In this document: one piece after another, positions 1 to 51,891 of the stretch | How positions within the stretch are numbered: position 1 is the stretch's first letter | How the letters are laid out: the number at the start of each line of letters is the position of its first letter | DNA from: Candidatus Omnitrophota bacterium | GTDB lineage: Bacteria > Omnitrophota > Omnitrophia > Omnitrophales > Aquincolibacteriaceae | DNA length: 55,160 nucleotides | Reading direction: 5' to 3' | Assembly (NCBI GenBank): GCA_003140935.1 | Contig: PLLJ01000035.1 | Coordinates: 1 to 55,160 of the forward strand | Position numbers and translations under genes: made by a program | The notes under the pieces: model-generated | What the model was told of the DNA's origin: nothing | Databases searched by the model: none | What the model saw: the letters and a program-made list of their open reading frames with translations, nothing else

Positions 1-110
1 TTTGAGGACGGGACGCATATTACGCCGCGGCCGTCGGGAACGGAGAACAAGATCCGGTTTTATGTTCAGGTGAAGGCGAATCATGTGACGGAGGCAACGC
101 TGGGGAACAT
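1..110 (+). other. C-terminal end of a phosphohexomutase module
   Basis: The translation begins FEDGTHITPRPSGTENKIRF. RPSGTE(P/N)K(I/L)R is the phosphate-binding loop of the last domain of the phosphoglucomutase/phosphomannomutase superfamily. The rest of the enzyme lies upstream of the window. Which sugar it uses cannot be told from this tail. Confidence 0.75.
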
Positions 111-3100
111 CCTGGCGGACGGGAATGTGGAGGCCTATCGCCAGATCATGGACCTCCAGGCCCAGGTCCAGCGCTCGGAGGCGAGGGAGGAGACGATTGA
201 GACATTGAGGGCGCAGGGGGTCACGATCGAGGCCTATCATGATGATTGGGAACTCACGAGGGAGTCTGTGGAGTCTTCGCTCTCAACAAAGCCAGAAGGC
301 TTTTATGCGGCTACGGGGGGGAGGTCCGTGGGATATCAACCTATTATCATTACAGCGCGCAAAGATGGTGAGTCTAACGCAGCCGTCCTTTCTGTAGACC
401 TTCGCGGCTCGATCGGATTTTTGCCATTGGTTTTGATCCAGTTGCCGCTAGGGATAAATTTAAATAAGCAAATTCTTAAAAAAATGGAGACACCCGACGT
501 TAGCCAGAGAGTTGGGAAGTTGCTTTTGGAAAGTGCTGGGAAATTCAGCCCGGCATTGGCTGATTATTTGACCAGCGTTGTGGCCAGTGTGGCTGCGGCA
601 AAATTCCTTCCCGGTGACAGCCGTTCTGAGGTGAGGCTGGATACGATCGTGGCATTAGCAGCGAAAGGGGTCACGATCGAACCCTATCAAGGCGGTTGGA
701 AACTCGGCGGGTCTTCGAGACCTGCGCTCGTGAATCGCCCGCAAGGTTTTCAAGCAGCCACAGGGTCTTTGGGCTACCGGCACGTCATTTATTCTGCGTA
801 TCGTGATAACGATCGTGCGGATGTTCTTTCCTTAGATCTAGGTAATGAAGCTCTGCCGCTGATCTTAATTCAAACGCCGGCCGGGCAATATATTAACTCA
901 CAGATCTCCGATAAAATGAAGATTCCTGAAGTCGACCAGCGCATTACGCGGTTGTTAATAGCAAGCAAGGGGCAGGCCAGTCCGGAATTGGTTGATTATT
1001 TGACCGGCGTTGTCCGCGAGGTTGCTGTTTCAGTATTCCTTTCCAGTTCCACCCGTTCCGAGGCACGTCTACTGGCGGAAACGGATATCGCACAGGTGAA
1101 ATGGAACAAGCAGTCGCGCGTTCTGGAGAATACCGCGGCGCGGGAACTGGCTGGCCGCATTTTAACGGAGGGATATACGAAGATCTTCGCGCCAACCACC
1201 GTTGAAGAACAGGCGGCGTTGCCGGCCAGCACAGCGGTAGCCCTGGTTCCAGGAAACATCCCTTTGTCGAAGGGCGATCTTTTATTCATTCCTTGGTACA
1301 CCTCGGAAGTTCTGCTTGTGAGGCAAGGGACGCCTTTGCGCCAAGTCGTGGATGGATTGATCAGAGGGGGATACGCGACGAGGGTTGAAAGCAGCAGCGT
1401 TGAGGTCGCCGCTCGTTCGGAAGCACGCGAGGGAGTTTTGCCGCGCGTCAATCCATCAAGAACGTGGGAATGGGTAGCGCTCAAGATTCTCTCTCCCTTC
1501 GTGAAAAGAATGAACATTGCGAAAGCGTTCGAAAATGATCCGACGAGACGCGAATGGCTTTCGGTGGATGCCGGAGATATTTATTTCGACGGTTCCAAGA
1601 ACCTCATCACAAAAGGGGTCCTTAACCTTCTGTTAGGGCTTGCCCGAAAAACGAAACTTCACGAATCGATCGAACTGATGTTCACAGGAGCGAAGATCAA
1701 CGAGACGGAAAACCGCGCCGTGCTGCATACAGCCTTGCGCAATATCCGGATTGATGAAGCCACCGGCCAGTTGGTTTCGGCGGGGCCGGTCATCGTGGAC
1801 GGCCAGGACGTGATGCCGGAAGTCCTCAAAGAGCTTAACAACATGGCCGATTTTGTCCGGGAAATTTATTCCGGAGTACGGAAAGGATATACCGGCAAAC
1901 CATTCAAGAATGTCGTCAGTATCGGGATCGGCGGTTCTTATCTTGGTCCCGAAATGGCTGCGTTAGCTCTATTGGCGTCGCGGGTGACGGGCATGAATTT
2001 CTATTTTGTCGCCAATGTCGATGGCGCGGATGCCGCAAGCAAGGTGACAGGACAGATACCGGGCATTCCGGAAGGGCTGAATCCCGAGGAAACGCTTGTG
2101 ATCGTCGAGTCCAAAACCTTTACGACGGCGGAAACGATCAAGAATGCCGAAACGGTTAAAGACTGGATTCTGAAACATTATAACGGTGACAAACAAGCGA
2201 TTGACAGCCACTTCGTGGCGGTTTCAACGGCAACGGATTTGGTTAAAGCATTCGGAATTACCCCTGACAAAAAGCACATGTTCGGGTTCTGGGATTGGGT
2301 CGGCGGCCGTTACTCCATGTGGTCCGCCATCGGGCTTCCGATCATGCTCGCCATCGGGCCGGAGAATTTCTACCAGATGCTTGCCGGCGCTCATGCGATG
2401 GATGTGCATTTCCGGACCGCTCCGTTCGCGAAGAACATTCCGGTCCTTAAGGCCCTCCTGAATATCTGGAACCGTATTTTCCTGGGAATGTCGTCCCTTA
2501 TTATAGCGCCTTATTCCCAGCTTTTAGGCCGCCTTGGGGCCTATCTTGAGCAGCTGTTCATGGAATCGAACGGCAAGAGTATTGACCGTAACGGCAAAAG
2601 GGTGACTTACAACACAAGCTCCGAAATTTACGGAGAATCCATGACGAACGGTCAACACGCCTACCAGCAGCAACCGCATCAGGGACACCTGCTGATTCCG
2701 GAGGACTTCATCGGAATAGTTCGCGCTTCACATACCGTACCGGGACATCAGACGGAACTCTTGGCGAATCTCTTCGGTCAAACCGAAGCTCTTGCAGTCG
2801 GGAAGTCTACGGCGGAAGCTTTGCGGGAGATCAAGGCCGATCAGGTGAAAAATCCGGGAAAATATACGGGCTGGACCGAAAAGGATTTCCTGTGGTTTGC
2901 GAAACAAAAAACATTTGAAGGCAATAAACCTACAAACCTGATCTTGATCGATGAATTGACCCCGTATACGTTCGGGGAAATGATCGCTATGTACGAGCAT
3001 CAGGTCGCCACAGAAGGGTTCATTCTCAATATCTTCAGCTTCGATCAATGGGGTGTGGAATTGGGGAAGGCCCTGGCGAAAATCATCAGCCCACTTCTAC

Positions 3101-3963
3101 GCGGCGTGAAAGAAATAGCAACGGCAGGGCTGACCGCTTCCACCGCTTTCGCGATCAAGCGAGTGCTTGAACGTCAAAAACCGGCGGACGTGAGTCCTAT
3201 GGCTTCTGTCGTGCGAGTCGAGACTCCTGCAGCGCAGAAGACCGACGAAACGTCCCGTTCGGAAGTACGCCAAGAGATGATCATGGGGGACTTGAGCATT
3301 TCGATGGGGTTGATCTCTCTTGAGCGGAATCCCACCCTTGAAGCCGCGTTGATCACAGCCGAAAAAGTGACCGCTGGGATCCTTTCACGTTTGGATGCGG
3401 CGAAGGTGTTTGTTAGCGGGGTTGTGATCAAGGTCGCTCAAGAACTTTTCCCCGGGCATTTCGGCATGGTGCCGACTGGAACCATGGCCGTCGAGGCCCG
3501 GGAAAAAGCAAGTGCGCTTCTCGGAATACGCACTCCAACGGCTTCGGACGTCTTTGTTCTGGGCCACGGCTTTTTCTCACAGGATCATCGTGTGGCGGCC
3601 GGTTTGCGTGAAGTTTATCCTGCTACGACTATTGTGGCGATCGTTAATACAGCCGGGGAGCGAGCCTTCCTTGAAGAGCTCAATCTTCGTCTTGCGAAGG
3701 AAGGCCTGCTGCCGGTCCTTGCAACAGGTCCCGAAAGTCCTGCTGAGCTCAGGGCGCATCTTGCCAAGGTGCAGGGCACTGTTCGTGCGACGGCCTTGCT
3801 GTATAGCGCTGAGAGCATTCCTTCTGCGTTGAAACAACAGCTTCCGAATACAGTCATCGTCACATCAAGAATGCTCAAGGGCTTTCTGAATGCTATCGAC
3901 ATGCTCGTGAGCGGTCTTGTCAAGGATCTCAAAGCGCAGTTCGCGATGGCTCGAAGCGCGTAA
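1..3963 (+). CDS. Giant multi-module protein A (phosphohexomutase tail, duplicated domain, phosphoglucose isomerase, unknown domain); 5' end outside window
   Basis: The frame is open to the left edge. A GTG at 70 is only an internal codon, because in-frame codons before it encode the phosphohexomutase C-terminal signature RPSGTENKIRFYV. Visible modules are the phosphohexomutase tail (1-~110), two copies of an unknown ~145-residue domain (172-1053), an unknown module (1054-1413), a complete phosphoglucose isomerase (1414-3255) and an unknown C-terminal domain (3256-3960). RSExR pentapeptides at 172, 622, 1054, 1414 and 3256 sit exactly at the module boundaries. The two recognisable enzymes act on neighbouring sugar-phosphate steps (hexose 1-P/6-P and glucose-6-P/fructose-6-P). 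A strong hairpin terminator follows the stop. Whether this protein is exported cannot be seen because its N terminus lies outside the window. The reading frame is certain; polyprotein processing is inference. Confidence 0.9.
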   Translation, partial: FEDGTHITPRPSGTENKIRFYVQVKANHVTEATLGNILADGNVEAYRQIMDLQAQVQRSEAREETIETLRAQGVTIEAYHDDWELTRESVESSLSTKPEGFYAATGGRSVGYQPIIITARKDGESNAAVLSVDLRGSIGFLPLVLIQLPLGINLNKQILKKMETPDVSQRVGKLLLESAGKFSPALADYLTSVVASVAAAKFLPGDSRSEVRLDTIVALAAKGVTIEPYQGGWKLGGSSRPALVNRPQGFQAATGSLGYRHVIYSAYRDNDRADVLSLDLGNEALPLILIQTPAGQYINSQISDKMKIPEVDQRITRLLIASKGQASPELVDYLTGVVREVAVSVFLSSSTRSEARLLAETDIAQVKWNKQSRVLENTAARELAGRILTEGYTKIFAPTTVEEQAALPASTAVALVPGNIPLSKGDLLFIPWYTSEVLLVRQGTPLRQVVDGLIRGGYATRVESSSVEVAARSEAREGVLPRVNPSRTWEWVALKILSPFVKRMNIAKAFENDPTRREWLSVDAGDIYFDGSKNLITKGVLNLLLGLARKTKLHESIELMFTGAKINETENRAVLHTALRNIRIDEATGQLVSAGPVIVDGQDVMPEVLKELNNMADFVREIYSGVRKGYTGKPFKNVVSIGIGGSYLGPEMAALALLASRVTGMNFYFVANVDGADAASKVTGQIPGIPEGLNPEETLVIVESKTFTTAETIKNAETVKDWILKHYNGDKQAIDSHFVAVSTATDLVKAFGITPDKKHMFGFWDWVGGRYSMWSAIGLPIMLAIGPENFYQMLAGAHAMDVHFRTAPFAKNIPVLKALLNIWNRIFLGMSSLIIAPYSQLLGRLGAYLEQLFMESNGKSIDRNGKRVTYNTSSEIYGESMTNGQHAYQQQPHQGHLLIPEDFIGIVRASHTVPGHQTELLANLFGQTEALAVGKSTAEALREIKADQVKNPGKYTGWTEKDFLWFAKQKTFEGNKPTNLILIDELTPYTFGEMIAMYEHQVATEGFILNIFSFDQWGVELGKALAKIISPLLRGVKEIATAGLTASTAFAIKRVLERQKPADVSPMASVVRVETPAAQKTDETSRSEVRQEMIMGDLSISMGLISLERNPTLEAALITAEKVTAGILSRLDAAKVFVSGVVIKVAQELFPGHFGMVPTGTMAVEAREKASALLGIRTPTASDVFVLGHGFFSQDHRVAAGLREVYPATTIVAIVNTAGERAFLEELNLRLAKEGLLPVLATGPESPAELRAHLAKVQGTVRATALLYSAESIPSALKQQLPNTVIVTSRMLKGFLNAIDMLVSGLVKDLKAQFAMARSA
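172..1053 (+). repeat. Tandem duplication of an unknown ~145-residue domain
   Basis: Two consecutive modules, 172-621 and 622-1053, each start with an RSExR motif. Both carry the same ordered landmarks: GVTIE(A/P)Y near the start, GF(Y/Q)AATG in the middle, L(V/I)LIQ(L/T)P, then (A/V)DYLT(S/G)VV near the end. I recognise no family. Divergence between the copies is substantial, so the duplication is not recent. Confidence 0.8.
1414..3255 (+). other. Phosphoglucose isomerase module (pgi-like) inside protein A
   Basis: Interconverts glucose-6-phosphate and fructose-6-phosphate. The PGI signatures appear in order: the sugar-phosphate loop SIGIGGSYLGPE near 1918-1953, ESKTFTTAET near 2107, MESNGKS at 2560-2580 (catalytic Glu), GQHA at 2650-2661 (catalytic His) and WGVELGK ending at 3069 (catalytic Lys). 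The Glu-His spacing of 31 residues equals that in E. coli PGI. The Gln-rich stretch after GQHAY differs from the usual sequence. The module is full length and looks active, but it is fused on both sides. Confidence 0.9.
3256..3963 (+). other. C-terminal module of protein A, unknown
   Basis: About 235 residues starting at RSEVR. It contains alternating hydrophobic strand and helix-like segments, such as a V-F-V-L-G-H-G-F stretch near 3550 and an L-P-N-T-V-I-V-T-S stretch near 3840. This suggests an alpha/beta fold, possibly receiver-like. It ends in ARSA, one residue from the motif core. No family is recognised. Confidence 0.4.
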
Positions 3964-3968
3964 TTACC

Positions 3969-4017
3969 AAAAAGGGGCAGGCGTCGTATTCTACGGAATC
4001 GTCGTCTGCTCCTTTTT
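3969..4017. terminator. Rho-independent hairpin terminator, probably bidirectional
   Basis: The A-tract and GGGGCAGGCGTCG at 3969-3986 pair with CGTCGTCTGCTCC and a T-tract at 4000-4017, with two G-U pairs and one mismatch, around a 13-base loop. It begins five bases after the stop of protein A. The opening bases resemble those of the hairpin at 52847, so it may also belong to a small palindromic repeat family. Confidence 0.8.
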
Positions 4018-4266
4018 CAATCCTGCCTTTTTCCGCAGTGTCATTCCTCAAGTTCATTCTCTGAAAATCCAGGAGCGGCTAAGTTTGCATTATTGATATT
4101 AGCAATAGATAGCAAATATAGCTTTTTATAGCATATTATAGCCAATAACATCTAAATAAATACTTTAAAGCTCTTGAAATATCTTAGTTATCATGGCAAA
4201 GTTTCTGTAGAGACAAGAATAGGAGATTGCAGCCTAACTTTTGGAGCATAAAAAGTCACATAACCT
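4018..4266 (+). promoter_or_regulatory. AT-rich upstream region with five helically phased TAGC repeats
   Basis: The region before the 3700-residue gene is much richer in A+T than its surroundings. TAGC occurs at 4100, 4110, 4119, 4129 and 4139, that is every 9-10 bases, embedded in A/T. No convincing -35/-10 pair was found, although TATCAT-like hexamers occur near 4190. No Shine-Dalgarno sequence is obvious directly before 4267. Confidence 0.5.
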
Positions 4267-7200
4267 ATGACCATAAAAAGTAGACAAAACTACGGCGCTG
4301 CTTTGCGAGCCATCGTTTGGGGAGTGGTCTTTGTATTCACACTCACGAGTGTGACATGGACGATGCCGACTGCCCACGCGAATACGACGCCTTCTGTCCG
4401 CCCGGGTCCTGTTGTGCCGTTGAAGGATCTGGCGGATGTCTCACTCCCCGCTGAGATCGGAAAGATCCGGGAAACCTACCGCGGGACAAGCGACAAGACG
4501 GTGATCCTGATCCAGGACGCCCATTCCATTCCTGACGCCCAACGCAGCATCCAATCCGCGATCGATCATTTCCAGAAAGAATACGGAGTCACTCTCATCG
4601 GGCTTGAAGGAGCTTCGGAGAGGCTGGACCCGCAGATCTTCCGGAGCTTTCCAGATAAGGAATTGCTCCGCAAGACATTTGATGATTATTCCGGAAAAGG
4701 GGAGCTCACCGGCGGGACAGCGGCCGCCTTATTCAATAGCTCCCAAACCGCGGTTTATCAGGGCATCGAAGATTGGGAGCTTTACGAGAAGGGGATTGCC
4801 GGCTTCTTGGGAGCCATGAAAACAGAAAGCGAAGTCACGGCATCGCTCGAGCAACGGATCATAGACCTGGAACGGGAAAAAGGGACGAGTTACCCCAAAG
4901 ATCTTCTTGAGGTCGACCGTCTTCTTACGCAGTTCGGCGAAAATAAAACCAACCTCGCGCAAGTCTTGAGCGGGCTAAGTCCATACCTGCCGCCCCCCGA
5001 AAGTTCAGAACTCGCCGTATTGCTTAAAGAAATTCAAACAAGCCAAAGACCTGAAACTGGAGACCTGAGATTTGAAAATGAGATCAAAAAGATCGCGGCG
5101 CAAGTCGAGTCGGTTCTCAAGAGCCGGTCCTCCTCACCGGAGCTCAAGCAGGACCTTCAAGCATTCTACGAGAAACGGCAGGAATACCAGACATCGCAAA
5201 TGACGTCACAGGCCTTTGCTTTGTTTTTGAGGGACCTCGCAAAGCAACACAAAGTGAGGGTTAAAGTCTCCCGCGAGCTCGCCTCCCTAGTAGAAGATCA
5301 AAAAAAATTGCGGGACATCGAAGGAACCCATCTTTTTGAAGGCTTTAAGCGCTATGCGGATGCCGTAAAAGAAAAACTGATCGGGAAGTCGGAGCCCGCG
5401 GTCCAGGACTTGATCAAACAATTAAATATTCGAACCCAAGAACTGGCGCTTCTCAAACGCCTCGCTAAGTTGGAACTCAGTTTCGAGGATTGGACGATCC
5501 TAAAGAAGACTATGGTGAAGCCATGGACTCTTGATCCTGAATTGCGGACGAAACTTGAGTCTCATCTCCGGTTCTACCGCATTGCCGAACAGCGCGACGA
5601 AGTTTTTTATAATAATTTGACTGATCTGATGAAGAGAAACGAATCCCGAGGTATGAATTCCGAGCCTCGTGCCGCGAATGCAGCGATCCTTGTGGCTGGC
5701 GGCTTCCACACCGGAGGGCTGACGCAGGCGTTTAAAGAAAAGGGGATTTCTTACATTCTCGTAATGCCCCGGATCGATCGTCTTCCCGAACAATCACTTT
5801 ACCGCGAGCACATGCAAGGTGACGTATCCTGGAAGAACTATTTCGAGGTCAAGAACGGCAAAGTGAATCTCTACGATGCTTTTGTCCGTGCTACTCGCGA
5901 TAAGCTTCTGAATACGAAGAGCTTAACGGGTCCCGAGTCCCGAATCCCGAGTCCCGTGTGCAAACAATGGCGCGATCAGATCATCCGCGACCTGGCGGAG
6001 CAGGGACGGATTGCTGAGGCCTCTGCCTACACCCGGTTCATGGATGAACTGGGTGGCCCAGGTGCAACGAATGACACGCAGCGGCTCAAAGAGACATGGC
6101 TCGCTAACATCGACCGCTTTGGGAATGGCCTCAAGAAACTCCAGGCCGCAGGCAAACTTAGCGCATCCGGTATTGCCCAACTCCTTAAATCCTTCACTAC
6201 TGCCGAACCTGTTCTTGCCAATGTTCTCGCGCCCGGAACCGAGATCCAATGGCCTCTGTCGGCACAACGTTCTGAAACGAGAGAGGCAGACAGTTTCAAA
6301 GCCTTCTGGACGGCTGAAAATTTTCTGAAACAAGAGCCGTTGATTTGGGAACGATTCAAAGAGATGGGGCTGAAGAACGAACCGGTGATCGTCAACCTTG
6401 AAGTGGATCGTCCGGAAATGGTCTGGCGGAGTATTCGGGACAAAATAGAAGCCCTGGATGATGATCAATTGGTCGCGTTGTCTCTTGTCGTTCATGATCC
6501 TCAAAAGGATTGGACGCATTATGTGATGATTGTTGATAGCGTCGGCAATATCGCAAGCGGGGCCCTTCCGCTCGGTCTTCTCAGCCTGCTCCCATTCGGA
6601 GATCAGGAATTCATTCTCTATGTCATCCAAGATAATAAAAATACCAATATCCATTTCAGGAACATTATCTTCGGACGAAGAGGCGTCGGGGACATCAATC
6701 CCTTGCGCGGTAAAAAAATAATGAAACCTGTTTTTGAGCGTCTGGAAGGCTTTTTAAGGAAAAGTTTCGAGGGATGGACAGTCAGCAGCTATTCGGTCAC
6801 AAGAAGCACGCGCCGGTTTATGGACCGATTTAATGCGGTACAGCCTCCGAACAACATTTTTATGGACTATCGGGCACGCGACTATGAACCTCTCATGCTT
6901 CCAACGGATGTTGTCGTCGGCCCCGATGCGAGGATGGATTTTGTGGTCGGACGTATCGAGAGTACTCCGCCTGCCACTCCCGAAGTGAACGCGGCTGGTC
7001 GGTCCGAAATGCGTGAGAAGGCAGCGACGGAATACGCCAAGCTGTTCCTTCGATGGCAAGATCAGGAAGCTTTTGTGGATCTTGTCGTTCGCGGGGAATT
7101 GGATAAGGCGGCTGCTTTGATTCAAGAAGCGCAAAAAGCCGGACGGACGCATTACGCGGATTTTCAGCTGAAGCCGCAGCGCGCAGTCTATCCCGGCGGG

Positions 7201-10200
7201 CTGGACCTCAGGATTTTAGAGCTCTTTCCGGACCTGGAAGTGGTGCATTTCATCAATCTACAGCCGTTCCGGGTTGATCATAAAGTTAATAAATTGACCT
7301 ACAAGGACCCTGAGGGGCACTCTTTCAAGGGTCGTCCGGCCCTCCAGAAAATGCTCGACCGGTATTTGTGGATGGCCTCTGTGAAACCTTACATCAGTGA
7401 TGAGACACAGCGGGGGATCCTCTATCCCACCGCCGAAAGAGCGAGTAGCAGGGACCCGCAGATCGGCGTGGAGCCGTTCATGAGGGCCGATCTTGAGAGG
7501 ATCGGTGCCTCGAACATCCAGGTCAACCCAGTAGCCGACGAACATCCGGGAATCAAGGTGTTCGAGATCCGGTTTAGTGATATTTTAGGGCGGATACGCA
7601 CAATCTATTATCACGAAATGGACTTTTTCGGGAAAGCCTACGCGCAAGTCTTGCAGGATGACCTGAAGGATAAAAAGATCGGCCTGTTATTTGTGAAAGG
7701 ATTTAACCCGGGCCGTGAGGCGGCTGAACGAGGCTACCCGCGGGTATTTTTTGACGGGCTTACGCCGGACGGGTTGCTGGCCAGGGACCATCCGTCCCTT
7801 TCGCATCTCAAGGGATTAGAGGTGGGAACGGATGTGGCATTGCTGTCGGATGCACGGACGAAGGTGTATTTCGAGCTTATCGGTTCTTTGGGCGGCATCG
7901 GAAGTGTTTGGGGCGATATCGGACACAGTGACAACACCGGGATCCCGCCGGGCATGGACGTTTTCCAACTGTCTGCCGATCCTCTCTTTGCTCAAAGGCT
8001 TTTCGATGATGCAAGGGAGATGGTTCGGAGGAATGACAGCTTGTCACTCGCTTCGGCAATGGCGATTGTGCGGCGGCAGATGACCGATGCCGCAATTAAA
8101 GCGGAAGATGCTGCAAGAGGTTCCCGTTCTGAAATGCGGCCGCTTCCGGAGCTGAATAATAAGATCCTTCTGGACGAGGCCACGGGGCGGATCGCGTTCG
8201 GGGACGAGCCGGTTGTCCGGTTGGATCTGGAGCTTTGGGGTGTCCGGCATGGGATAACACCCGCCAATGAAGTTAATGAAAGACTTCTCCCTTCCGAGCG
8301 GGACAAAAAAGGGAACTTTCAAGGCCAGGTCGACGAGGGAATCGGTGAACCCGAAGGATTTAATCAACTGACACCCAAAGGAAAGGAGCAGGCAGAAACC
8401 GCTGCGGATGCGTTGGTCGCTCAGTTCAAAGACAAGATCGAAGCCGGTGAAGAGATCGTCGTTGTGATGAGTCCGAGGAACCGCGCTGTGGAGACTGCGA
8501 AGGCGTTTATCCGAAAGTTTACGGCTGCGGGCGGCAAGGTCAAAATAGTCACTAATCGTGAGATCAGGGCCGGTGCCGATGAAATGGATTTCGGTTTCTG
8601 CGATAACAAAGCCACGAATGATATCACCATCCCCGCGAGCAGGGAGTTTGTTCATCGGTACCGCGACGGGCTTGATGTTACCGCCCATCCCGGTCCGCTG
8701 ATGGAAGGAACTCGGGTGCTGAAAAAAGGGGAGAGATATTTGGACCTTTTGGTCCGGGAAAAGAAATTCGCGGAACGGCTTAACAGCATGTTCCGGGGCC
8801 GGACCGTGGTTGTTTTCGGTCACGGAACACAGTTGGGCGCTCTCCGGGTCATTTTGAGAGAAAAAAAGTTAACGGATGAGTCCGGCCGCATTAATTGGCG
8901 GCGAAGCCGGCTTCCCAATGCCGCGCCCGTCCTTTTATCGAAGCCTTTGTCCCAGGGCCGTTCCGAAGTGCGGGAGCCTTTGATGCGGAGACATTGGGTT
9001 CAATTGGCTTTGGGTTTGGTGGCCGCTCCTGCGGCTACGATCGGAGAGGCACTGGCCCAGCCGGGATCTTCGTTATTCTCGAAAGCGTCATCTTTTTTCT
9101 CATCTTTTGCAGCTCAACGGTCCGAATCACGGGAGGAAAAACCGGTCGTGGGGTCCTTAGGTGAAAAAGAGTTGCAAGACAAGATCGCGGAGATTGGGAC
9201 ATATAATGTGCCCGGCCGGTATGCCCCGATCATCCGTTGGATCAAAGGGGAGAGCAATCTTTATCTTCCCGAAAGTGAGTTGACGGAAGAGACCGCCATC
9301 GTGGATCTCGGAACGAGCACCGGTTACGGTGCCCTGGACCTTCATGAGGCGTTTCCGGCGCCGTATATTTATGCGGTTGACCCGAAAGAAGGCGGGGTGG
9401 CGCTCGAGCTCCATCCTTCCGACAAGATCATTACGAAGAGAAAAATAGACCACCGTCTTCAGGGCATTGATTTTGTGAACAAAGAGGGAAAGCTTTTGAA
9501 GGTTAAGGTCATCATTTTATTTAATGTCATGCAATTTTACAGCCCCGATGAAGTCGCGGATATTGTCAAGCAGTCTGCCCAAAAACTGGATGAAGGAGGC
9601 CTTTATATCCTGGGGGTCAGGTACCCCGTTGGAAGGATCAAGAGCTTTTCTGTTCTGAAGTTCATGATCCTGCAGAAAGTCAACGGGGCCATGGTCCCGC
9701 GGGAATTGATCTTACGGCAATTCACCGATAATAAGGGCATGGGTCTGGCTGATTGGGCACGTTTCATGTCGGATGATTCGGCCCGGGTTTTCGGCCCCCG
9801 GTTGGCTAAGATCGACAGAAAGATCAACACTGTCCGGACAGCGATGTTTCCGCCCGGCACAGCCAACATTTTATTTCAAGAAAATGCGCCGCCGATCGAA
9901 CACAAGATATTCCAGGCGCAACAGAAGACTTTACTTGAGGAGGGTGTGCAGTTCCGCCCATTCAATTTCCCCAATGACCTTTCCAGCAATGGATCACAAA
10001 ATGAAAGCATTCCAATCGCCATTTCCTTTGACCAGCCCGCGTTGCGGGGAAGCTCTCCGCAGTTTCCAAGCCGTTCCGAAATGCGAATTGGGGATACCCC
10101 CCGGCCTGTGGCGATGGACCCATTTCAGGATATACAGTTTAGGATGGGTGCAAAAGTAGAAATCGAGTTTCGGGGGACAGGTCTGGCCAGAAGTTTTACC

Positions 10201-13200
10201 CTGGAGCGTGATCGTAGCGGGAACCTCGTGGTAAGTTCTACGCAGGATGAAGAAATGCTGCTTCGGTTACTCGATATGAAACCTGTCGTGGTGAAGAAAA
10301 ATCCTTCCAACGGGATTTACTTGTTAACCTCTGATGAGAGTTTTGGCCCGGAGGGACTGCTGTTCTACCTGGCAAAGAATAGCAACGGCTCGGTCTCTCT
10401 TGTCAACATGGGCGAAGGTAAACTGACGCTCTCCGGCGACTTTACGCCTGAAGCGGAAGAGCAACGCTCCGAGGTGCGGGAAGACCAAGAGGGACCTCGT
10501 CTCATCAAACCCGAGCTTAAAGTCTATGACCATCACGATCAGGCCTACTACCAGATCAAGGATGCAGTCGATGCCAAAAGGATCCCGTCCGGGCTTCCGC
10601 TCATTCTTTTTGACCACCACAGCGATAATGGCGCCAAAGAAGAAAAGATCGGCATTGAAAATTGGGTCACTTATTTGAAAGATGAACGTGTGATCGGCGA
10701 TGCCTTTTGGGTCTATCCTGACGAGGAAATCCATCCCCATTTCGGAGCTTACGAAATTAGCCATCAGCGGACATTCAAGATGAAAGGATATAATCTCGAA
10801 AGTATCGTTCGGAAAAATGCTGCAGCGCTCCAAGCGGGTGTGGTCCTATCGTTTGACCTGGACTATTTTGCCGCGAATTATGCCCATGGGGGGCCTCTCT
10901 ATCATCCTCCGACAGGAGAGATCGCAAGAAAGATTGCCGCAGTTTTTATGATTCTTCGAAGAAACCACATTCCGGTTTATCTGATCAACGGCTCTTATTC
11001 CGTTCCGCACTATGCCCCGGCGAATTATAAAGGGGAGTTCCACCAAGCCCTTTCCCACGCCGCGGAAAATTATGAAATGCCGTCTGTCCGTTCCGAGGTG
11101 CGGGATGAAAGGAAAATGATCGCGGGTGCCGAGGAAGAAATGAAAACGATCGACCGGTCGGTCTCAACGGCCTACCGGAATACTTACGGCAAGGCATTCC
11201 GCAATTATTTCGAGGATCTGGGACCTCAGGCCGAGTTCCTTTTTGCCGATGCCGCGATGCATTTTTATTTTAGTCTTAGAGTAAATCAAAATAACACTCT
11301 CCAGGGAGCCGTTGGCGATCTTTTTGATCTGATACCTGATCTGGAGATCTATTTAAGAAGCCAGTGGATCCGTGTTCTGCTGGCTGGCTCCAAAGGGCCG
11401 GCGGTGTTCTCAGGAGATCTCACGAAAGCCATGATGGACCTTTTCGGGACTGTTCTTAGTTTGGCGGAAAAAAATCCGCAATTCGCGGAACAACTGATCC
11501 GCCGCAGGGCTTTGTGGATGGGGCTCAACCTATTAAAGATGAAGACCGCTGTGCAGCCGTTGCCCTTCCGGATCGATTCCGACCCGGTCGTAAACCGTGC
11601 GCCCTATGTGGATATTGCCACAGGGCTGAACGGGATGTATGCCTTGCCGGGTCTCGTGGAGCCGGGGCGGGAAGTGATCTTCGTGGATCCTTCCAAAGAG
11701 ATCGGTATTTATCTGAGCAAAGCCATCCAGTTGTTTGGCGTCCAAGGCCATGTCAGGCGTTTGCGTGCGGATGCTCTAACATTGGCCAGCCATTTCAAAC
11801 CGGAAAGCATCGGGACGATCCGTTTACGGTACATAGGACATTTTGTGGAAGGGATCACCCCGGAGTGGATCGAGGGACTTGGCAAGCTTCTGGTTCCGGG
11901 GGGCCGTCTTATTATTTCTACCTATCCGAAGAAAGGGGAACCAAGGGCCTTGGATCAGGACGCTTTTCTTGCGACTTTTGACGGTTCCAAGAATCAAAAA
12001 ATGGTCCAGGATGCTAAACAAATTTTTTCCGCTCAGAAGGGTTGGCGCTTGGAGTACGGGCATATCGGAAGGGACGGGAAACTTGTTCCCGGTGTTCTGG
12101 GCTATGAAACAGAGGGCCATGACAATTATTTTTTTGCAGAGCCCTTGTTTGTTTTTACAAAGCCGAACAGATCCCGCTCCGAAGCCCATCAACAAACTGA
12201 GACCGTGACAAAAAAACGATCCGAAACGCGGGCAGTAAATGAAGAACCGGATTTTGTTTATCCGAAAAGATCTTTAACCTTACCGCCTCGATTTGCAGCG
12301 GATCAGCAGGTCCGTGTTGCTCTATGGATTTCCGATATTGATCAAACGATCGCGCCGGGGGATTCTCTGCTGGAAGGTGAGAATTTGGAGAGTCTCATCG
12401 CCTTGCTGGAGCAAGAGAAGCCGGTGATTCTCATCAGCGGCAGCCCCTATTCCCGAATATACGCGGGGATCGATTTTACCAACGCATCGATTGAAAGACG
12501 CGTTGTTGAAGTTCTGTATAAATATTTTGAAGCCAAGCATACCCTGCAAAAAATGAAAAATCTTCGGATACGGTTCATGTCTGGCCGGGGGACCGTCACT
12601 TTTGATGAAAACGCACGAGCGACCATTACGGAAGATGAAAGCAAGAATATCCCCTTGAAGATACAAGTTGAGGTTGCAAAAAGCTTAGCAGTGGCTTTTG
12701 CAGCGAACCATAAAAAACAAACCCTCGAAGATTTCTTGAAGGACCCTGTAGCTGCGGACATATTTCAGGCTGCTTCGCTCGCGGAGATCGAAATTATTTT
12801 GCGTGAGAAGACCCCTTTTAAGGATGTTCTGTTCTGGCCTTTTGAAAGCGAACTGGCCCTGATCTTCTTTGACCCTCAAGCTCCTGAGGGCGACCCGGTT
12901 CAACAAGGGGCGCAGCAACTATTGGCAAGGAGAGGTATCGAATTGCCAAAAGAAAAGTATGAATTCACCGGAGGGCATGCCTTTGCGAAGGTTTCCTTGA
13001 TCCGTAAACGTGATGTCATTGAGGAAGAGATCCGTCGCATTAATCCCCGCGGGGCCGTTCTCGGAACGGGGGACTCAAAAACAGACAATTTTTTAACGCT
13101 TCAAGGCGAAGACATTCCTTCGGAGGCAGTCTACCTTCCTGTGTATTTCGGGAAAGAAGGCGATTTTCCGGATCATCCCGGTGTTATTGTTGCGCGAGAC

Positions 13201-15369
13201 AGGCAAGGCAAGGATGGAGTGAGATTGCGCGGATTTTCCCGCATCGTTCAGAATATGCTGGTGGCTGAAAACGAAGGGCTGAGTTATCGAGACTTAAGAA
13301 TATTTTGTGGTGGCTGGTTTACACTAAGAGAATTAGAAGCGAAGGGCGTTCAAATAGATTTTTCCCGTTTCGAGAAACGTTCCGAAATGCGGACGATACC
13401 CGTCGGCGTGACGAATGGCACGCATGTTATGATCCAGGCGCCGAACCCCACCGAAGTGGGCATCAAGCAGCGATACGATAGTCCCAAGCCACAGAGCAGG
13501 ATCTCGACGGGTTTTCATTATGAGACTTTTGTTCTTAAGGCGGCGGACAGGCAAAAAGTTCCGGGGAGTGTTTCGTTGCCTGTCCGCGTCGTGCTGCCGG
13601 GGGCGTGGAAGATAATGACGCCGGACCTGATGGTCGTGGACCGCTTGTTCTTTGTTTATATGCGTCTTCTTCAAAAGATCGCCGCAGATCGGGATCTTCG
13701 GGATGTTGTTTTGAATTTTGGCGATCCGATCAAAGCGAATGATGGCAAAGAACGGAATATTGTCCGCCTGTTCCAAACGGGACGGGACGGTGGGACTTTA
13801 GCAATGTTTTGGCACGCCAAGGATGAGGAAGAAAGCAATCTGGAAACCGGTGTGCAAGGCCAATCCATTTTATTTTACAGGTTAGGGAAATTGTTATTGG
13901 CAAAATTATCGCGCGAGGAGGCTGAGCAACTTAAGGATGGGTTGGGACGGTGGACTAAAGAAAGAGAGCCGTCCACGCCTGACGGTCTGTTGAAAGAATA
14001 TGTCACGACAACCGCTGTGCAGGTTTCCGACGATACGGTGCTCCGGCCGGAATTGGAGTGGGTTCTCCGCCATGAGAGAGCCCATTGGGCGTTACGTGTT
14101 AAGGCCACTACGGCGGATAGGGTGACGTTGAGAAAAGGCTATGTTGCGTTTCTCAGATCGGCGAACGGACCGAAGGTATTGGAGGAATTTTTTCTCGAAA
14201 ACAAATCTCCGTATCACGATCGGGTCAACGAAGATGTTGAACGGGTCAAGACGGGCCGGGAGAAACAGGTCAAGTTTACGGATGAATTCTGGGCTCAATT
14301 GGCTTATCCGGAGGAGGTTTTTTACGAGTCGTCTCCCCTGGTACAGGTCATTGAGGATTTGCGGAGGACTGATCCGGTGTTCGAAGAGGCGTCAGTGCTT
14401 TTTGAGAGGTTAGTCAGGCAGGAGGGGGACGTCAAAGCCGGGGAAGATCTTCGGGCTATTGTAGCCGATTTCGGACTTCATCAAATGTATCCCGAGGCTG
14501 GACTTGATGCAGCCCGCTCCGAAGTGCGGCTTGTTCCGCCAGTGGTCGGAAAACTTGCAAACATGCTGGAGCCGTCACGGAAGGGTGCCGCCTTGGACGC
14601 AACGGAAATGATTGCTGTCTATGAATTAGCGCAAAAGGACTTACCGGCGTTAGTCCAGGCATTGAAAACCGCGGCGGAAGAGCAGATGGCTCAAAGATCC
14701 ATCCAGGCCGGAAAGCTTTATGACAGTATCAAAGCGCACCAAATCAAGATTTTCCAAAAATGGACCGCCGAGCCGGCGGATTCTCCAGAAACGGGTATTT
14801 CAGTGGCCCTGATGATGGATGAAAAGACCAACCAACCGTTTCTTTCCCGGTTCGCGCAAGTTTTGAAAACTTATGCAGGCCGGAGAAAAGTGGAATTGAT
14901 CGCGGATCCCGCGCTTTTGAATACCCCGGAACTCAGGGCCTCGGCCGGTTTTTATAAAGAACACCCGATTGATCCGAAGTCCGTGAAAGGCGCCTTAACG
15001 GTTCTGGGTTCCAATGCACAGGTTCCGCTGGGATTTGATGCGGCGGCGGAGAAGGCGGCCATTTCCATGGTCGATTTCGGGTTCCGTCCTCTTTCCGTGG
15101 CTTATAAAGCGGGCAACACTCCTGATGACGTTCTGATGCAGGATCACCTGGAACTTATTTTTGCCGTTACGCTCCTTCATATGGCTGAACTGATCGCGGA
15201 GCGCAAAAAAGAAGACGGTCCGATGACGGCGGCAATGTTGAAGACACAACTCGAAGCCTTTTTCGGGATCGGGGGAATGTTCCAAGCCAATGCAGACGGT
15301 TCACTTTCCATTCTCGGAGCCGTCGTCCAGCAATATCTCGCCCAGTCTGCGGTCGGCAAAGCCGCATAG
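4267..15369 (+). CDS. Giant exported multi-module protein B (3700 residues) punctuated by RSExR motifs
   Basis: A classical Sec signal peptide opens the protein: basic start, hydrophobic core at residues 15-30, and a probable cut after the AHA at residues 36-38. Twelve RSExR-type motifs at residues 668, 912, 1287, 1565, 1618, 1936, 2067, 2275, 2637, 2651, 3038 and 3417 divide it into modules. In order these are TIKI/TraB-ChaN-like, two unknown, histidine phosphatase, a signal-like segment, methyltransferase, a small unknown, UPF0489-like, a second methyltransferase, HAD phosphatase, HExxH domain and an unknown C-terminal domain. Several are normally free-standing enzymes. The codons of the motif vary synonymously, so selection is on the protein. 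The gene stands alone between an AT-rich upstream region and the tyrS promoter. Whether the chain is cut into separate proteins is inference. Confidence 0.93.
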   Translation: MTIKSRQNYGAALRAIVWGVVFVFTLTSVTWTMPTAHANTTPSVRPGPVVPLKDLADVSLPAEIGKIRETYRGTSDKTVILIQDAHSIPDAQRSIQSAIDHFQKEYGVTLIGLEGASERLDPQIFRSFPDKELLRKTFDDYSGKGELTGGTAAALFNSSQTAVYQGIEDWELYEKGIAGFLGAMKTESEVTASLEQRIIDLEREKGTSYPKDLLEVDRLLTQFGENKTNLAQVLSGLSPYLPPPESSELAVLLKEIQTSQRPETGDLRFENEIKKIAAQVESVLKSRSSSPELKQDLQAFYEKRQEYQTSQMTSQAFALFLRDLAKQHKVRVKVSRELASLVEDQKKLRDIEGTHLFEGFKRYADAVKEKLIGKSEPAVQDLIKQLNIRTQELALLKRLAKLELSFEDWTILKKTMVKPWTLDPELRTKLESHLRFYRIAEQRDEVFYNNLTDLMKRNESRGMNSEPRAANAAILVAGGFHTGGLTQAFKEKGISYILVMPRIDRLPEQSLYREHMQGDVSWKNYFEVKNGKVNLYDAFVRATRDKLLNTKSLTGPESRIPSPVCKQWRDQIIRDLAEQGRIAEASAYTRFMDELGGPGATNDTQRLKETWLANIDRFGNGLKKLQAAGKLSASGIAQLLKSFTTAEPVLANVLAPGTEIQWPLSAQRSETREADSFKAFWTAENFLKQEPLIWERFKEMGLKNEPVIVNLEVDRPEMVWRSIRDKIEALDDDQLVALSLVVHDPQKDWTHYVMIVDSVGNIASGALPLGLLSLLPFGDQEFILYVIQDNKNTNIHFRNIIFGRRGVGDINPLRGKKIMKPVFERLEGFLRKSFEGWTVSSYSVTRSTRRFMDRFNAVQPPNNIFMDYRARDYEPLMLPTDVVVGPDARMDFVVGRIESTPPATPEVNAAGRSEMREKAATEYAKLFLRWQDQEAFVDLVVRGELDKAAALIQEAQKAGRTHYADFQLKPQRAVYPGGLDLRILELFPDLEVVHFINLQPFRVDHKVNKLTYKDPEGHSFKGRPALQKMLDRYLWMASVKPYISDETQRGILYPTAERASSRDPQIGVEPFMRADLERIGASNIQVNPVADEHPGIKVFEIRFSDILGRIRTIYYHEMDFFGKAYAQVLQDDLKDKKIGLLFVKGFNPGREAAERGYPRVFFDGLTPDGLLARDHPSLSHLKGLEVGTDVALLSDARTKVYFELIGSLGGIGSVWGDIGHSDNTGIPPGMDVFQLSADPLFAQRLFDDAREMVRRNDSLSLASAMAIVRRQMTDAAIKAEDAARGSRSEMRPLPELNNKILLDEATGRIAFGDEPVVRLDLELWGVRHGITPANEVNERLLPSERDKKGNFQGQVDEGIGEPEGFNQLTPKGKEQAETAADALVAQFKDKIEAGEEIVVVMSPRNRAVETAKAFIRKFTAAGGKVKIVTNREIRAGADEMDFGFCDNKATNDITIPASREFVHRYRDGLDVTAHPGPLMEGTRVLKKGERYLDLLVREKKFAERLNSMFRGRTVVVFGHGTQLGALRVILREKKLTDESGRINWRRSRLPNAAPVLLSKPLSQGRSEVREPLMRRHWVQLALGLVAAPAATIGEALAQPGSSLFSKASSFFSSFAAQRSESREEKPVVGSLGEKELQDKIAEIGTYNVPGRYAPIIRWIKGESNLYLPESELTEETAIVDLGTSTGYGALDLHEAFPAPYIYAVDPKEGGVALELHPSDKIITKRKIDHRLQGIDFVNKEGKLLKVKVIILFNVMQFYSPDEVADIVKQSAQKLDEGGLYILGVRYPVGRIKSFSVLKFMILQKVNGAMVPRELILRQFTDNKGMGLADWARFMSDDSARVFGPRLAKIDRKINTVRTAMFPPGTANILFQENAPPIEHKIFQAQQKTLLEEGVQFRPFNFPNDLSSNGSQNESIPIAISFDQPALRGSSPQFPSRSEMRIGDTPRPVAMDPFQDIQFRMGAKVEIEFRGTGLARSFTLERDRSGNLVVSSTQDEEMLLRLLDMKPVVVKKNPSNGIYLLTSDESFGPEGLLFYLAKNSNGSVSLVNMGEGKLTLSGDFTPEAEEQRSEVREDQEGPRLIKPELKVYDHHDQAYYQIKDAVDAKRIPSGLPLILFDHHSDNGAKEEKIGIENWVTYLKDERVIGDAFWVYPDEEIHPHFGAYEISHQRTFKMKGYNLESIVRKNAAALQAGVVLSFDLDYFAANYAHGGPLYHPPTGEIARKIAAVFMILRRNHIPVYLINGSYSVPHYAPANYKGEFHQALSHAAENYEMPSVRSEVRDERKMIAGAEEEMKTIDRSVSTAYRNTYGKAFRNYFEDLGPQAEFLFADAAMHFYFSLRVNQNNTLQGAVGDLFDLIPDLEIYLRSQWIRVLLAGSKGPAVFSGDLTKAMMDLFGTVLSLAEKNPQFAEQLIRRRALWMGLNLLKMKTAVQPLPFRIDSDPVVNRAPYVDIATGLNGMYALPGLVEPGREVIFVDPSKEIGIYLSKAIQLFGVQGHVRRLRADALTLASHFKPESIGTIRLRYIGHFVEGITPEWIEGLGKLLVPGGRLIISTYPKKGEPRALDQDAFLATFDGSKNQKMVQDAKQIFSAQKGWRLEYGHIGRDGKLVPGVLGYETEGHDNYFFAEPLFVFTKPNRSRSEAHQQTETVTKKRSETRAVNEEPDFVYPKRSLTLPPRFAADQQVRVALWISDIDQTIAPGDSLLEGENLESLIALLEQEKPVILISGSPYSRIYAGIDFTNASIERRVVEVLYKYFEAKHTLQKMKNLRIRFMSGRGTVTFDENARATITEDESKNIPLKIQVEVAKSLAVAFAANHKKQTLEDFLKDPVAADIFQAASLAEIEIILREKTPFKDVLFWPFESELALIFFDPQAPEGDPVQQGAQQLLARRGIELPKEKYEFTGGHAFAKVSLIRKRDVIEEEIRRINPRGAVLGTGDSKTDNFLTLQGEDIPSEAVYLPVYFGKEGDFPDHPGVIVARDRQGKDGVRLRGFSRIVQNMLVAENEGLSYRDLRIFCGGWFTLRELEAKGVQIDFSRFEKRSEMRTIPVGVTNGTHVMIQAPNPTEVGIKQRYDSPKPQSRISTGFHYETFVLKAADRQKVPGSVSLPVRVVLPGAWKIMTPDLMVVDRLFFVYMRLLQKIAADRDLRDVVLNFGDPIKANDGKERNIVRLFQTGRDGGTLAMFWHAKDEEESNLETGVQGQSILFYRLGKLLLAKLSREEAEQLKDGLGRWTKEREPSTPDGLLKEYVTTTAVQVSDDTVLRPELEWVLRHERAHWALRVKATTADRVTLRKGYVAFLRSANGPKVLEEFFLENKSPYHDRVNEDVERVKTGREKQVKFTDEFWAQLAYPEEVFYESSPLVQVIEDLRRTDPVFEEASVLFERLVRQEGDVKAGEDLRAIVADFGLHQMYPEAGLDAARSEVRLVPPVVGKLANMLEPSRKGAALDATEMIAVYELAQKDLPALVQALKTAAEEQMAQRSIQAGKLYDSIKAHQIKIFQKWTAEPADSPETGISVALMMDEKTNQPFLSRFAQVLKTYAGRRKVELIADPALLNTPELRASAGFYKEHPIDPKSVKGALTVLGSNAQVPLGFDAAAEKAAISMVDFGFRPLSVAYKAGNTPDDVLMQDHLELIFAVTLLHMAELIAERKKEDGPMTAAMLKTQLEAFFGIGGMFQANADGSLSILGAVVQQYLAQSAVGKAA
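4381..6267 (+). other. Module 1 of protein B: TIKI/TraB-ChaN-like domain with helical insert
   Basis: Residues 79-86 read VILIQDAH, and later residues carry LIGLEGAS. Near residues 475-500 comes a LVAGGFHTGGL stretch followed by a strand. A His-containing loop at the start, Glu after the next strand and a G-x-H-x-x-G loop at the end is the layout of the TIKI/TraB/ChaN/GumN superfamily. The middle is charged and helical. At 5928-5962 the coding sequence includes a GGGACTCG-family repeat, translated in frame. Superfamily assignment is moderate. Confidence 0.5.
6268..8124 (+). other. Modules 2 and 3 of protein B, unknown
   Basis: Two modules, 6268-6999 (about 244 residues) and 7000-8124 (about 375 residues), each begin with RSE(T/M)RE. 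The first has a hydrophobic sheet-like core around A-L-S-L-V-V-H-D and I-L-Y-V-I-Q-D. The second contains I-L-E-L-F-P-D-L-E-V-V-H-F, which could be a Rossmann-like strand, and a glycine-rich G-S-L-G-G-I-G-S stretch. No family is recognised for either. Confidence 0.4.
8125..8958 (+). other. Module 4 of protein B: histidine phosphatase (phosphoglycerate-mutase superfamily)
   Basis: The VRHG motif puts the catalytic Arg-His at residues 1327-1328. SPRNRAVETA supplies the second Arg, and VVVFGHGTQLGAL the second His at residue 1519. This is the full branch-2-like catalytic set, so the module looks active as a phosphatase or mutase. The substrate cannot be inferred. Confidence 0.8.
8959..9117 (+). 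other. Module 5 of protein B: internal signal-peptide-like segment
   Basis: Right after RSEVREPL comes MRRHWVQLALGL, then an alanine-rich stretch ending A-L-A-Q (residues 1573-1598). This has a Met start, twin arginine, a hydrophobic core and a small-residue cut-like end, exactly as in a free-standing signal peptide. A Ser/Phe-rich tail leads to the next RSExR. It may be a fossil start of an ancestral separate gene or a real membrane segment. Confidence 0.5.
9118..10071 (+). other. Module 6 of protein B: SAM-dependent methyltransferase-like
   Basis: VDLGTSTGYG at residues 1679-1688 is a SAM-binding motif I. It is followed by an acidic strand end (Y-A-V-D-P), and later by I-I-L-F-N-V-M-Q-F-Y-S-P-D-E and a G-G-L-Y-I-L strand, as in class I methyltransferases. 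The substrate is unknown. Confidence 0.65.
10072..10464 (+). other. Module 7 of protein B: small beta-rich domain, unknown
   Basis: About 130 residues between two RSExR motifs, with alternating short hydrophobic strands and turns (V-E-I-E-F-R-G-T-G, G-N-L-V-V-S-S, S-V-S-L-V-N). It is probably a small beta-sandwich or barrel. No family is recognised. Confidence 0.35.
10465..11088 (+). other. Module 8 of protein B: UPF0489/arginase-like domain
   Basis: LILFDHHSDNG (Asp-His-His at residues 2116-2118) and LSFDLDYFAAN (Asp-x-Asp at 2197-2199) match the two metal-binding loops of UPF0489 (C5orf22-type) proteins, which resemble the arginase/deacetylase fold. The metal-ligand residues are present. 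The biochemical role of the family is not established. Confidence 0.6.
11089..12174 (+). other. Module 9 of protein B: second methyltransferase-like domain
   Basis: A helical N-terminal part leads to YVDIATGLNG near residues 2447-2456, then EVIFVDPSKE. Further on come an RADAL stretch and a L-L-V-P-G-G-R-L-I-I-S strand. This order is that of a class I SAM methyltransferase. Motif I is degenerate, with T-G-L-N-G where G-x-G-x-G is usual, so activity is uncertain. Confidence 0.55.
12217..13377 (+). other. Module 10 of protein B: HAD-superfamily phosphatase
   Basis: ISDIDQT places the catalytic Asp pair at residues 2690 and 2692. ILISGSP is motif II and GDSKTD (Asp 2936) is motif IV. A large cap lies between. 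The set matches a Cof-type HAD hydrolase and appears complete. A 14-residue spacer with its own RSEAH and RSETR precedes the module. Confidence 0.75.
13378..14514 (+). other. Module 11 of protein B: HExxH-containing domain, possible metallopeptidase
   Basis: WVLRHERAHWALR carries HExxH at residues 3269-3273 within a predicted helix flanked by hydrophobic residues, the usual zincin arrangement. Acidic residues 40-50 positions later (N-E-D-V-E) could give a third metal ligand. If active it could process the giant proteins themselves. The family is not recognised, and one short motif is weak evidence. Confidence 0.4.
14515..15369 (+). other. Module 12 of protein B: C-terminal domain, unknown
   Basis: About 284 residues after RSEVR, mostly helical with strand-like V-A-L-M-M-D and K-V-E-L-I-A-D segments. 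It contains a P-E-L-R-A stretch also seen, as A-E-L-R-A, in the last module of protein A, so the two C-terminal domains may be distant relatives. It ends in a hydrophobic helix and G-K-A-A. Confidence 0.35.
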
Positions 15370-49963: not shown

Positions 49964-50029
49964 GTATTTTTTATAATGTTCCCAGGTTTTATCTGTTAAA
50001 ATTTTAGAGATCTTCAAGTGAGGTGTAAA

Positions 50030-50797: not shown

Positions 50798-50883
50798 GAA
50801 TTTGAAGGCGAAGACCGGAAAAGTTTAACAAGAAAAAATCCGGGTTGATCAACAGTTCAACGCATCGAGAAGATGGAGATAAA

Positions 50884-51657: not shown

Positions 51658-51669
51658 TCAACGTATTCA

Positions 51670-51795
51670 GGCGGAATTTTTGAATGGGGGGCATTCACAG
51701 GCGAATATTTTTGTGGTGTGCAGTCCGCGGTGTTCCTGGAAGGCCTTAAGGCTCAGCAATCGGAAAAGGAGATCAGGGAGCTGAAAAAGCGATAA
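51670..51795 (+). pseudogene. Fragment of a fourth S74-domain gene
   Basis: Codons from 51727 to the TAA at 51793 read A-V-F-L-E-G-L-K-A-Q-Q and then E-I-R-E-L, matching the C-terminal coiled part of the three neighbours (A-V-L-L-E-A-I-K-A-Q-Q). No start or upstream domain remains. A small hairpin with arms CGCCTG and CAGGCG follows near 51842-51870. Confidence 0.6.
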
Positions 51796-51891
51796 GCGGG
51801 TTCGCGGATACAAGAATTTCGCGTAATTCCGGGGACCGCCGCCTGTCATGCAGTGAGGCAGGCGCATTACTTAATTCAAATAAGGTGAAAA

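Follow-up and report, generated by a model that had tools for sequence, protein, structure and literature searches.

Punctuated, polyprotein-like giant proteins with export features in an order of Omnitrophota

Giant proteins of an order of Omnitrophota contain several complete proteins in one reading frame, and a short linker motif, RSExR or in sister families [A/G]xSLG, marks the boundaries between them. Together with the terminal modules and the cysteine content described below, this makes a polyprotein-like, exported and punctuated architecture well supported. Cutting at the linkers is likely, and we lean, if only slightly, towards the view that the chains are exported 'cargo-train' polyproteins whose linkers are read, and most probably cut, by a cognate extracytoplasmic protease.

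Two giant frames at the start of a contig

The window, by which we mean the whole stretch of 55,160 nucleotides that was analysed, is a contig start (its first base is contig base 1) from the 2.4-Mb genome of a Candidatus Omnitrophota bacterium, here called G000; the named relatives that were matched are Omnitrophota MAGs almost without exception. A reading made from the letters only (the sequence-only reading) had reported two consecutive giant frames with 17 copies of RSEx[R/H], one of them ending in H. We found the same: all copies lie in frame +1, from 172 to 14515, and they comprise 16 RSExR and the RSEAH at 12175. The first frame, W1, opens inside a phosphoglucomutase-like C-terminus (RPSGTENKIRFYV) and closes with a C-terminal cap. 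The features of W1 and of the second frame, W2, are as follows.

1..3963, + strand: giant frame W1, 1320 aa, 0 Cys; 5' end missing at the contig start
172..186, + strand: motif RSEAR (W1)
172..621, + strand: 150-aa module homologous to the next one (49% identity), no assigned function
622..636, + strand: motif RSEVR (W1)
622..1053, + strand: 144-aa module, duplicate of module 172..621
1054..1068, + strand: motif RSEAR (W1)
1054..1413, + strand: module, 33% identity to a module of giant C17, also of G000
1414..1428, + strand: motif RSEAR, at the natural N-terminus of phosphoglucose isomerase (PGI)
1414..3255, + strand: complete glucose-6-phosphate isomerase module, no Cys; MESNGK, GQH and WGVELGK segments retained
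3256..3270, + strand: motif RSEVR, after PGI
3256..3960, + strand: C-terminal cap module, ends ARSA; Rossmann-like alpha/beta model
4267..15369, + strand: giant frame W2, complete, 3700 aa, 12 motifs, 3 Cys
4267..4380, + strand: predicted Sec-type signal peptide (...TWTMPTAHA), from sequence and a hydrophobic peak
4381..5970, + strand: conserved N-module (IQDAH...LEGA...GGFHT) of W2
6268..6282, + strand: motif RSETR (W2)
7000..7014, + strand: motif RSEMR (W2)
8125..8139, + strand: motif RSEMR (W2)
8125..8958, + strand: histidine phosphatase module, RHG motif retained
8959..8973, + strand: motif RSEVR (W2)
8959..9117, + strand: 53-aa module, only a twin-arginine-like signal/transmembrane segment (MRRHWVQLALGLVAAPAATIGEALAQ)
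9118..9132, + strand: motif RSESR (W2)
9118..10071, + strand: methyltransferase-like module (weak, E 3e-4)
10072..10086, + strand: motif RSEMR (W2)
10465..10479, + strand: motif RSEVR; next module with a very weak UPF0489 match
11089..11103, + strand: motif RSEVR; next module with BezA as best PDB match, non-significant (E 0.77)
12175..12231, + strand: double motif with a 14-aa unit, RSEAH 12175-12189 and RSETR 12217-12231
12217..13377, + strand: module with a HAD-like DxDxT (SDIDQT), by eye only (W2)
13378..13392, + strand: motif RSEMR; next module holds HERAH (HExxH)
14515..14529, + strand: motif RSEVR (W2)
14515..15366, + strand: C-terminal module ending GKAA, 28% identity to the end of giant G002_C58

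Looking at the domains that had been named from the letters, PGI proved complete, with a Pfam E of 4e-169 and coverage of positions 5-541 in the NCBIfam model of 544, and the histidine phosphatase was recovered with an E of 7.5e-11. The methyltransferase-like module obtained weak support (3e-4), and for the HAD phosphatase we observed no match in Pfam or against PDB sequences, its DxDxT-like motif being visible by eye only. The modules had further been described as unrelated to their neighbours; this description needs correction for modules 172-621 and 622-1053, which are homologous duplicates. The motifs at 12175 and 12217 enclose only a spacer unit. The module that follows the motif at 7000 has a relative placed straight after a motif in another locus (L040; 46% identity over ~150 aa).

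Longer frames exist in the lineage, with 7365 aa (22 kb) in G000, 11,858 aa in the relative G038 and 15,709 aa in the largest frame. If membership of the phylum and a length above 20 kb are taken as the marks of Omnitrophota giant ORFs, the lineage has such ORFs, W1 (4 kb, cut) and W2 (11 kb) being shorter. Two further observations were made in the window. An 18th RSETR (15727-15741) lies in the next gene (15460-16677), which is tyrosyl-tRNA-synthetase-like, and is probably a coincidence with the synthetase motif (GDPSGRSETRP). At 50000-52689 there are two secreted proteins, nearly free of Cys, whose starts are related (AGKVEYPTLYPAPNGDY, AGKVELTTYYPSPYGEY).

The linker motif, its placement and its descent

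In 51 giants from G000 and its relatives (191,640 aa) RSExR occurs 325 times, when 4.3 copies are expected from composition; this excludes a chance origin. Other ORFs of the window and of the genome stretches hold 3 copies (0.8 expected). Ten giants of G000 carry 73 of them, and over this whole genome the motif pattern is about 14-fold more frequent than its reversed control (compare 47+62 with 5+3). Enrichment of the pattern was found in nearly all genomes of family f1 and, within the same order, also in f3 and f8; across the phylum 285 genomes were sampled, and apart from a few exceptions most of them show it at control level. The motif is present family- and order-wide and sits at boundaries rather than at random positions in these relatives, as the sequence-only reading had proposed to check.

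The same reading had placed the motif between domains, and a depletion inside them is indeed observed: 27 recognised domains of seven giants contain 2 copies as compared with 17.9 expected, the two overlaps being one edge contact and one weak domain match. Blocks of BLAST homology start and end within 15 aa of a motif in 36% and 24% of cases, respectively (7% and 5% by chance; the blocks are not all independent), and motif density within such blocks is about 9-fold lower than overall (compare 0.25 with 2.19 per 1000 aa). The flanks of the motif are rich in P, S, Q and A and poor in aromatic residues, as in flexible linkers. Some motifs lie ~30 aa apart with no module between them, tandem linker copies exist, and in G038 the neighbouring GDH and PALP domains have no motif between them.

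The case of PGI is the most precise. The enzyme is a free 560-aa gene in the congener G002 and is embedded in giants of G000 (the window), G038 (the 11,858-aa frame) and G032, with R[SA]ExR at both natural termini; in a fragment from G003, PGI is seen with its upstream motif only. In G038 the motif RAEAR stands where the free enzyme stops (compare ...WIRNKRAGS-RAEAR with ...RYRKMRAAV-stop), and the natural N-terminus is also preceded by a motif. In the window the alignment runs from module residue 9 onward, which corresponds to residue 11 of a solved PGI. The transketolase of the G038 giant likewise spans the interval from motif 1374 to motif 2097. A polyprotein-like architecture, with several complete and separable proteins per frame and a motif at their boundaries, is strongly supported.

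Three observations touch on these modules. In L021 (G000:C45:38582-39268) a partial PGI domain is carried by a separate frame of ~950-1020 aa, as it is in most of the family's genomes; this frame is the usual PGI of the family, full-length PGI being sporadic, and NCBIfam has a transaldolase/PGI fusion. Residues 1663-1824 of giant C17 (L015) are tandem 81-aa modules, each led by RSEIR and 98.8% identical, which is a recent module duplication. Finally, a short N-module gene (L030, 9893-11887) closes in SRAELRQD-stop, with the punctuation motif just before the stop codon.

Among the 73 copies of G000 the residues R, S, E and R are almost never replaced: variants with K in place of R, D in place of E, or A or T in place of S are at background, and the sole one-letter variant above it is RSExD (3 vs 0.4). 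RAExR is tolerated in some relatives. At the x position V, A, L, M, T, I and S predominate, and one RSExR genome (G019, JAUYMS) uses RSELR almost exclusively. The third codon positions of the motif vary and are much less conserved, and the flanking DNA is near background; therefore the peptide is the conserved entity. A DNA or RNA element as the present function was rejected on these grounds, and so was a DNA repeat or mobile palindromic element within the genes, conservation being neither equal across codon positions nor extended beyond the motif. The codon of the motif serine is TCN in 70 of the 73 copies of G000 and in 137 of 152 in relatives, with a background of about one third AGY. In the second dialect, described below, it is AGY (23/27 in JACROU and 37/40 in G036). 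TCN and AGY codons cannot be interchanged by one silent change, thus the copies in one dialect share one DNA ancestor. The earlier statement that the motif is 'not a DNA repeat' holds for the conserved amino acids and varying third positions, and it missed this common DNA descent; judged from the codons, DNA copying is a supported origin of the motif copies.

Families f7 and f4, of the same order, contain no RSExR. Their giants have the same N-module, layout and Cys purge and are punctuated by [A/G]xSLG. Four giants of G036 together have 40 copies and L037 has 13, while Omnitrophus fodinae (G035) and L065 have 9 each. Their Pfam domains (HAD, PEPCK-N, DUF488, TPR, SecA-like, GNAT and ACT) lie between the motifs, with one edge overlap. 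The G036 giants (L182-L185) repeat an extended linker, EWLRxEAQSLGA, round the SLG motif, have 0.03% Cys and end in AA; the O. fodinae giant (L038, 4400-15946) holds SecA-like DEAD, P-loop and preprotein-binding domains at residues 1288-1869.

Terminal modules, cysteine depletion and cargo

In almost all N-terminally complete giants the chain opens with a signal peptide of Sec type and then a module of ~500 aa characterized by IQDAH, LEGA and GGFHT. Signal peptides, called by eye and from hydrophobicity, are visible at the N-termini of W2, C2, C4a, C4b, C5a, C5b, C24, C29 and G038_C42. The N-module is present in 46 of 46 genomes of the order, in 1-47 copies each and in frames of 562 to 15,709 aa. 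Its AlphaFold model is confident (pLDDT 82). Pfam gave nothing at E<=1, PDB sequences gave nothing significant, and the fold comparison gave 3b55 at rank 50 (E 2.6). A TraB/ChaN/EreA-like identity is a guess from motifs, for which no significant sequence or fold match was obtained.

As to the C-termini, [S/A/K]-A closes 22 of the 23 complete giants; SA, AA, KA or TA ends are found in 7.2% of control ORFs (n=376). Of 46 genomes, 18 have relatives of the W1 cap (3256-3960); these stand almost without exception at the very C-terminus, and their last residue is Ala in 26 of 26 aligned rows, mostly as [R/K]SA. The cap gave no significant sequence or fold match in the PDB; it was not retained as a known fold, the similarity being generic Rossmann-like only.

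The giants contain 0.13% Cys. Other ORFs of the same loci have 1.13% when cytosolic-type (~8-fold depletion in the giants) and 0.55% when they carry a signal peptide. Relative to cytosolic-type genes the Cys ratio is 0.12 in giants and 0.49 in exported controls, and that of His is 0.64 in both. Trp, Phe, Tyr and Met are nearly unchanged, which eliminates an economy of costly amino acids as the cause. The purge is similar in enzyme modules (0.116%) and in the N-module (0.098%) and is independent of the number of upstream transmembrane segments; PGI has no Cys when embedded and two when free, and the whole 11,858-aa chain of G038 has six. As the purge extends across the whole chain, it is most simply explained by export of the entire chain from the cytoplasm. 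The sequence-only reading had overlooked the signal peptide, N-module, C-cap, Cys purge and second dialect as well as the DNA ancestry of the motif.

Many of the cargo modules are enzymes. The G038 giant (G038_C42) carries transketolase, PfkB kinase, glutamate dehydrogenase, a PLP-dependent dehydratase-like enzyme, hexokinase, phosphoglucomutase (PGM), a UDP-glucose pyrophosphorylase-like module, KDPG aldolase, transaldolase and PGI, so that a sugar-metabolism set of hexokinase, PGM, PGI, transaldolase, transketolase and KDPG aldolase stands on one 11,858-aa chain. By eye, key residues are retained in PGI, PGM, hexokinase, PfkB, KDPG aldolase and the histidine phosphatase; one active-site segment of the G038 transketolase is altered. 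Further modules of the giants are histidine-kinase ATPase, HPr-like, protein kinase, methyltransferase, ADP-ribosylglycohydrolase and membrane HExxH. Hexokinase (Pfam Hexokinase_1) was seen in L179, L180 and L181 (G038, G007 and G002, respectively), in giant frames in two genomes and in a 690-aa frame in G007; it is absent from 14 of 14 control genomes.

Transmembrane or signal segments start 5-40 aa past the motif in 27 of 413 cases (6.5% vs 1.9% by chance), with no excess before it. Such a pattern would arise if proteins were fused with their leaders retained, or if modules were sorted one by one, and we favour leader retention because of the Cys data. Residues 4561-5560 of giant C5a (L012/L013) contain two post-motif transmembrane modules with HEMGH and HELGH, which look site-2-protease-like by eye.

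Reading of the linkers and its alternatives

We propose that each chain would consist of a Sec signal peptide, the conserved N-module, variable complete modules, many of them metabolic enzymes whose key residues suggest intact catalysis, and an end or cap that closes the C-terminus with Ala. The whole chain would be exported, which would account for the purge of Cys from every module. RSExR, or [A/G]xSLG in f7 and f4, would be a short linear motif recognised outside the cytoplasm by a factor specific to the lineage. Because the linker motif is strict, lies at natural ends and was switched wholesale in sister lineages, we suggest a cognate reader that changed together with the dialect. The likeliest reader would be an endopeptidase; by cutting the linker it would release the modules in the periplasm, at the surface or in a partner cell, in each case outside the cytoplasm. 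Modules would be gained by gene capture, a copied linker replacing stop and start.

Several points weigh against this scheme. Neighbours without an intervening motif exist, such as GDH-PALP in G038, and no reader protease was identified in a search over clostripain, caspase-like, trypsin-like and, with no positive control, gingipain-type (C25) families: among 46 genomes, clostripain C11 is found in none, caspase-like C14 in 3 and trypsin-like proteases in 26, uncorrelated with the motif, a distribution that fits none of them as the reader, and within the giants no protease module recurs, HExxH or trypsin motifs being only scattered. Internal transmembrane segments would complicate the export of a single chain, and enzymes that use ATP, SAM or sugar phosphates would be odd outside the cell unless they act inside a partner cell. 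The chains may instead stay intact, with the motif as a docking or assembly tag by which each bead on an exported strand of enzymes is anchored to a surface layer or a partner protein; strict conservation, a tag in each flexible linker and the failure to find a protease also fit this, and in the part of the literature consulted an adhesin or coat role has been proposed for giant Omnitrophota proteins (PMC10066038). We consider docking unlikely, since independent soluble enzymes with natural termini are not needed for it and several motifs stand ~30 aa apart with no module between.

Cleavage could also be intracellular and operon-like, the N-module leaving via Sec, modules led by Tat or transmembrane segments going to the membrane and the enzymes staying in the cytoplasm. 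Twin-arginine or signal-like segments right after motifs (RRGFLKAGF in C4b, SRRVAIQRGLLAFAG in G005_C49) and cytosolic-looking modules (PGI, transketolase, hexokinase, kinases, SecA-like) speak for it, but the enzyme modules are purged of Cys like the N-module whatever the upstream transmembrane count, PGI has no Cys when embedded and two when free, and cytosolic-type proteins show no such purge, which makes this reading improbable. That the motif has no reader and is a by-product of module addition, i.e. linker DNA copied at a recombination or duplication junction, agrees with the serine codon memory in both dialects and the tandem linker copies; scrambled third positions with R/S/E/R near-invariant in 73 copies indicate purifying selection on the peptide, the flanking DNA is unconserved, and we give this idea little credit. 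An action in translation or folding, for instance as a ribosome-skipping (2A-like) or pausing peptide, would separate modules without a protease and suits a motif at the would-be stop/start position, but synonymous codons vary, two unrelated sequences serve sister families and we know of no skipping peptide that resembles the motif; it is very improbable. Export followed by cutting at the linkers is the reading that we retain.

Polyprotein cutting at a strict motif is familiar from viruses and from eukaryotic secretion. Viral polyproteins (picornavirus, potyvirus) share with the giants complete proteins in one frame, a strict linker motif and natural termini; unlike them, the giants are bacterial and chromosomal, apparently exported, numerous in each genome and loaded with metabolic enzymes, encode no recognised protease and have processing only as a proposal. 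Secreted eukaryotic polyproteins (prohormones, nematode polyprotein allergens) are likewise secreted precursors with repeated basic sites between modules, but prohormone-type sites are di- or tetrabasic and served by general proprotein convertases, whereas here a specific R-[S/A]-E-x-R separates diverse enzymes. AROM, FAS I and PKS/NRPS also join several enzymes in one chain, in that case intracellular, uncleaved, in fixed order and for one pathway; in the giants module order varies by genome, one linker tag is used and the chain is exported-like and nearly Cys-free. The C-terminal domains of type IX secretion resemble the C-cap as a family that marks the cargo of one export route, but belong to other organisms, and the W1 cap has no significant PDB match. 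To our knowledge, genome-wide building of enzymes into polyproteins for export is not familiar in bacteria.

Also close, in the literature, are the giant ORFs of Omnitrophota, which include a 39,678-aa ORF in Velamenicoccus archaeovorus (PMC10066038) and share the phylum, very large ORFs, signal or transmembrane segments and few annotated domains. The passages found in that paper present them as adhesin- or coat-like and do not mention punctuation, module boundaries, N- or C-caps or a Cys purge. In a survey of huge proteins, the question of cleavage of bacterial giants, and of the motifs at which it would occur, is left open (PMC11573180). In the library searched we found no description of an RSExR punctuation motif, and nothing closer on giant or secreted bacterial polyproteins and their processing.

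Going further, and tentatively, there may be an order-wide secretion system in which enzymes, up to much of sugar metabolism, are exported as cleavable, nearly Cys-free polyproteins with standard caps, lineage-specific punctuation peptides and co-evolving proteases, perhaps supplying a partner or prey cell. The system offers a concrete, testable motif in two dialects, module ends that are exactly placed and, within one genus, PGI in both free and embedded form as a natural pair. If the linkers are cut, gene counts and pathway predictions for such genomes would change and two new protease specificities would be added; if they are not, intact, exported, Cys-free multi-enzyme strands would be equally strange.
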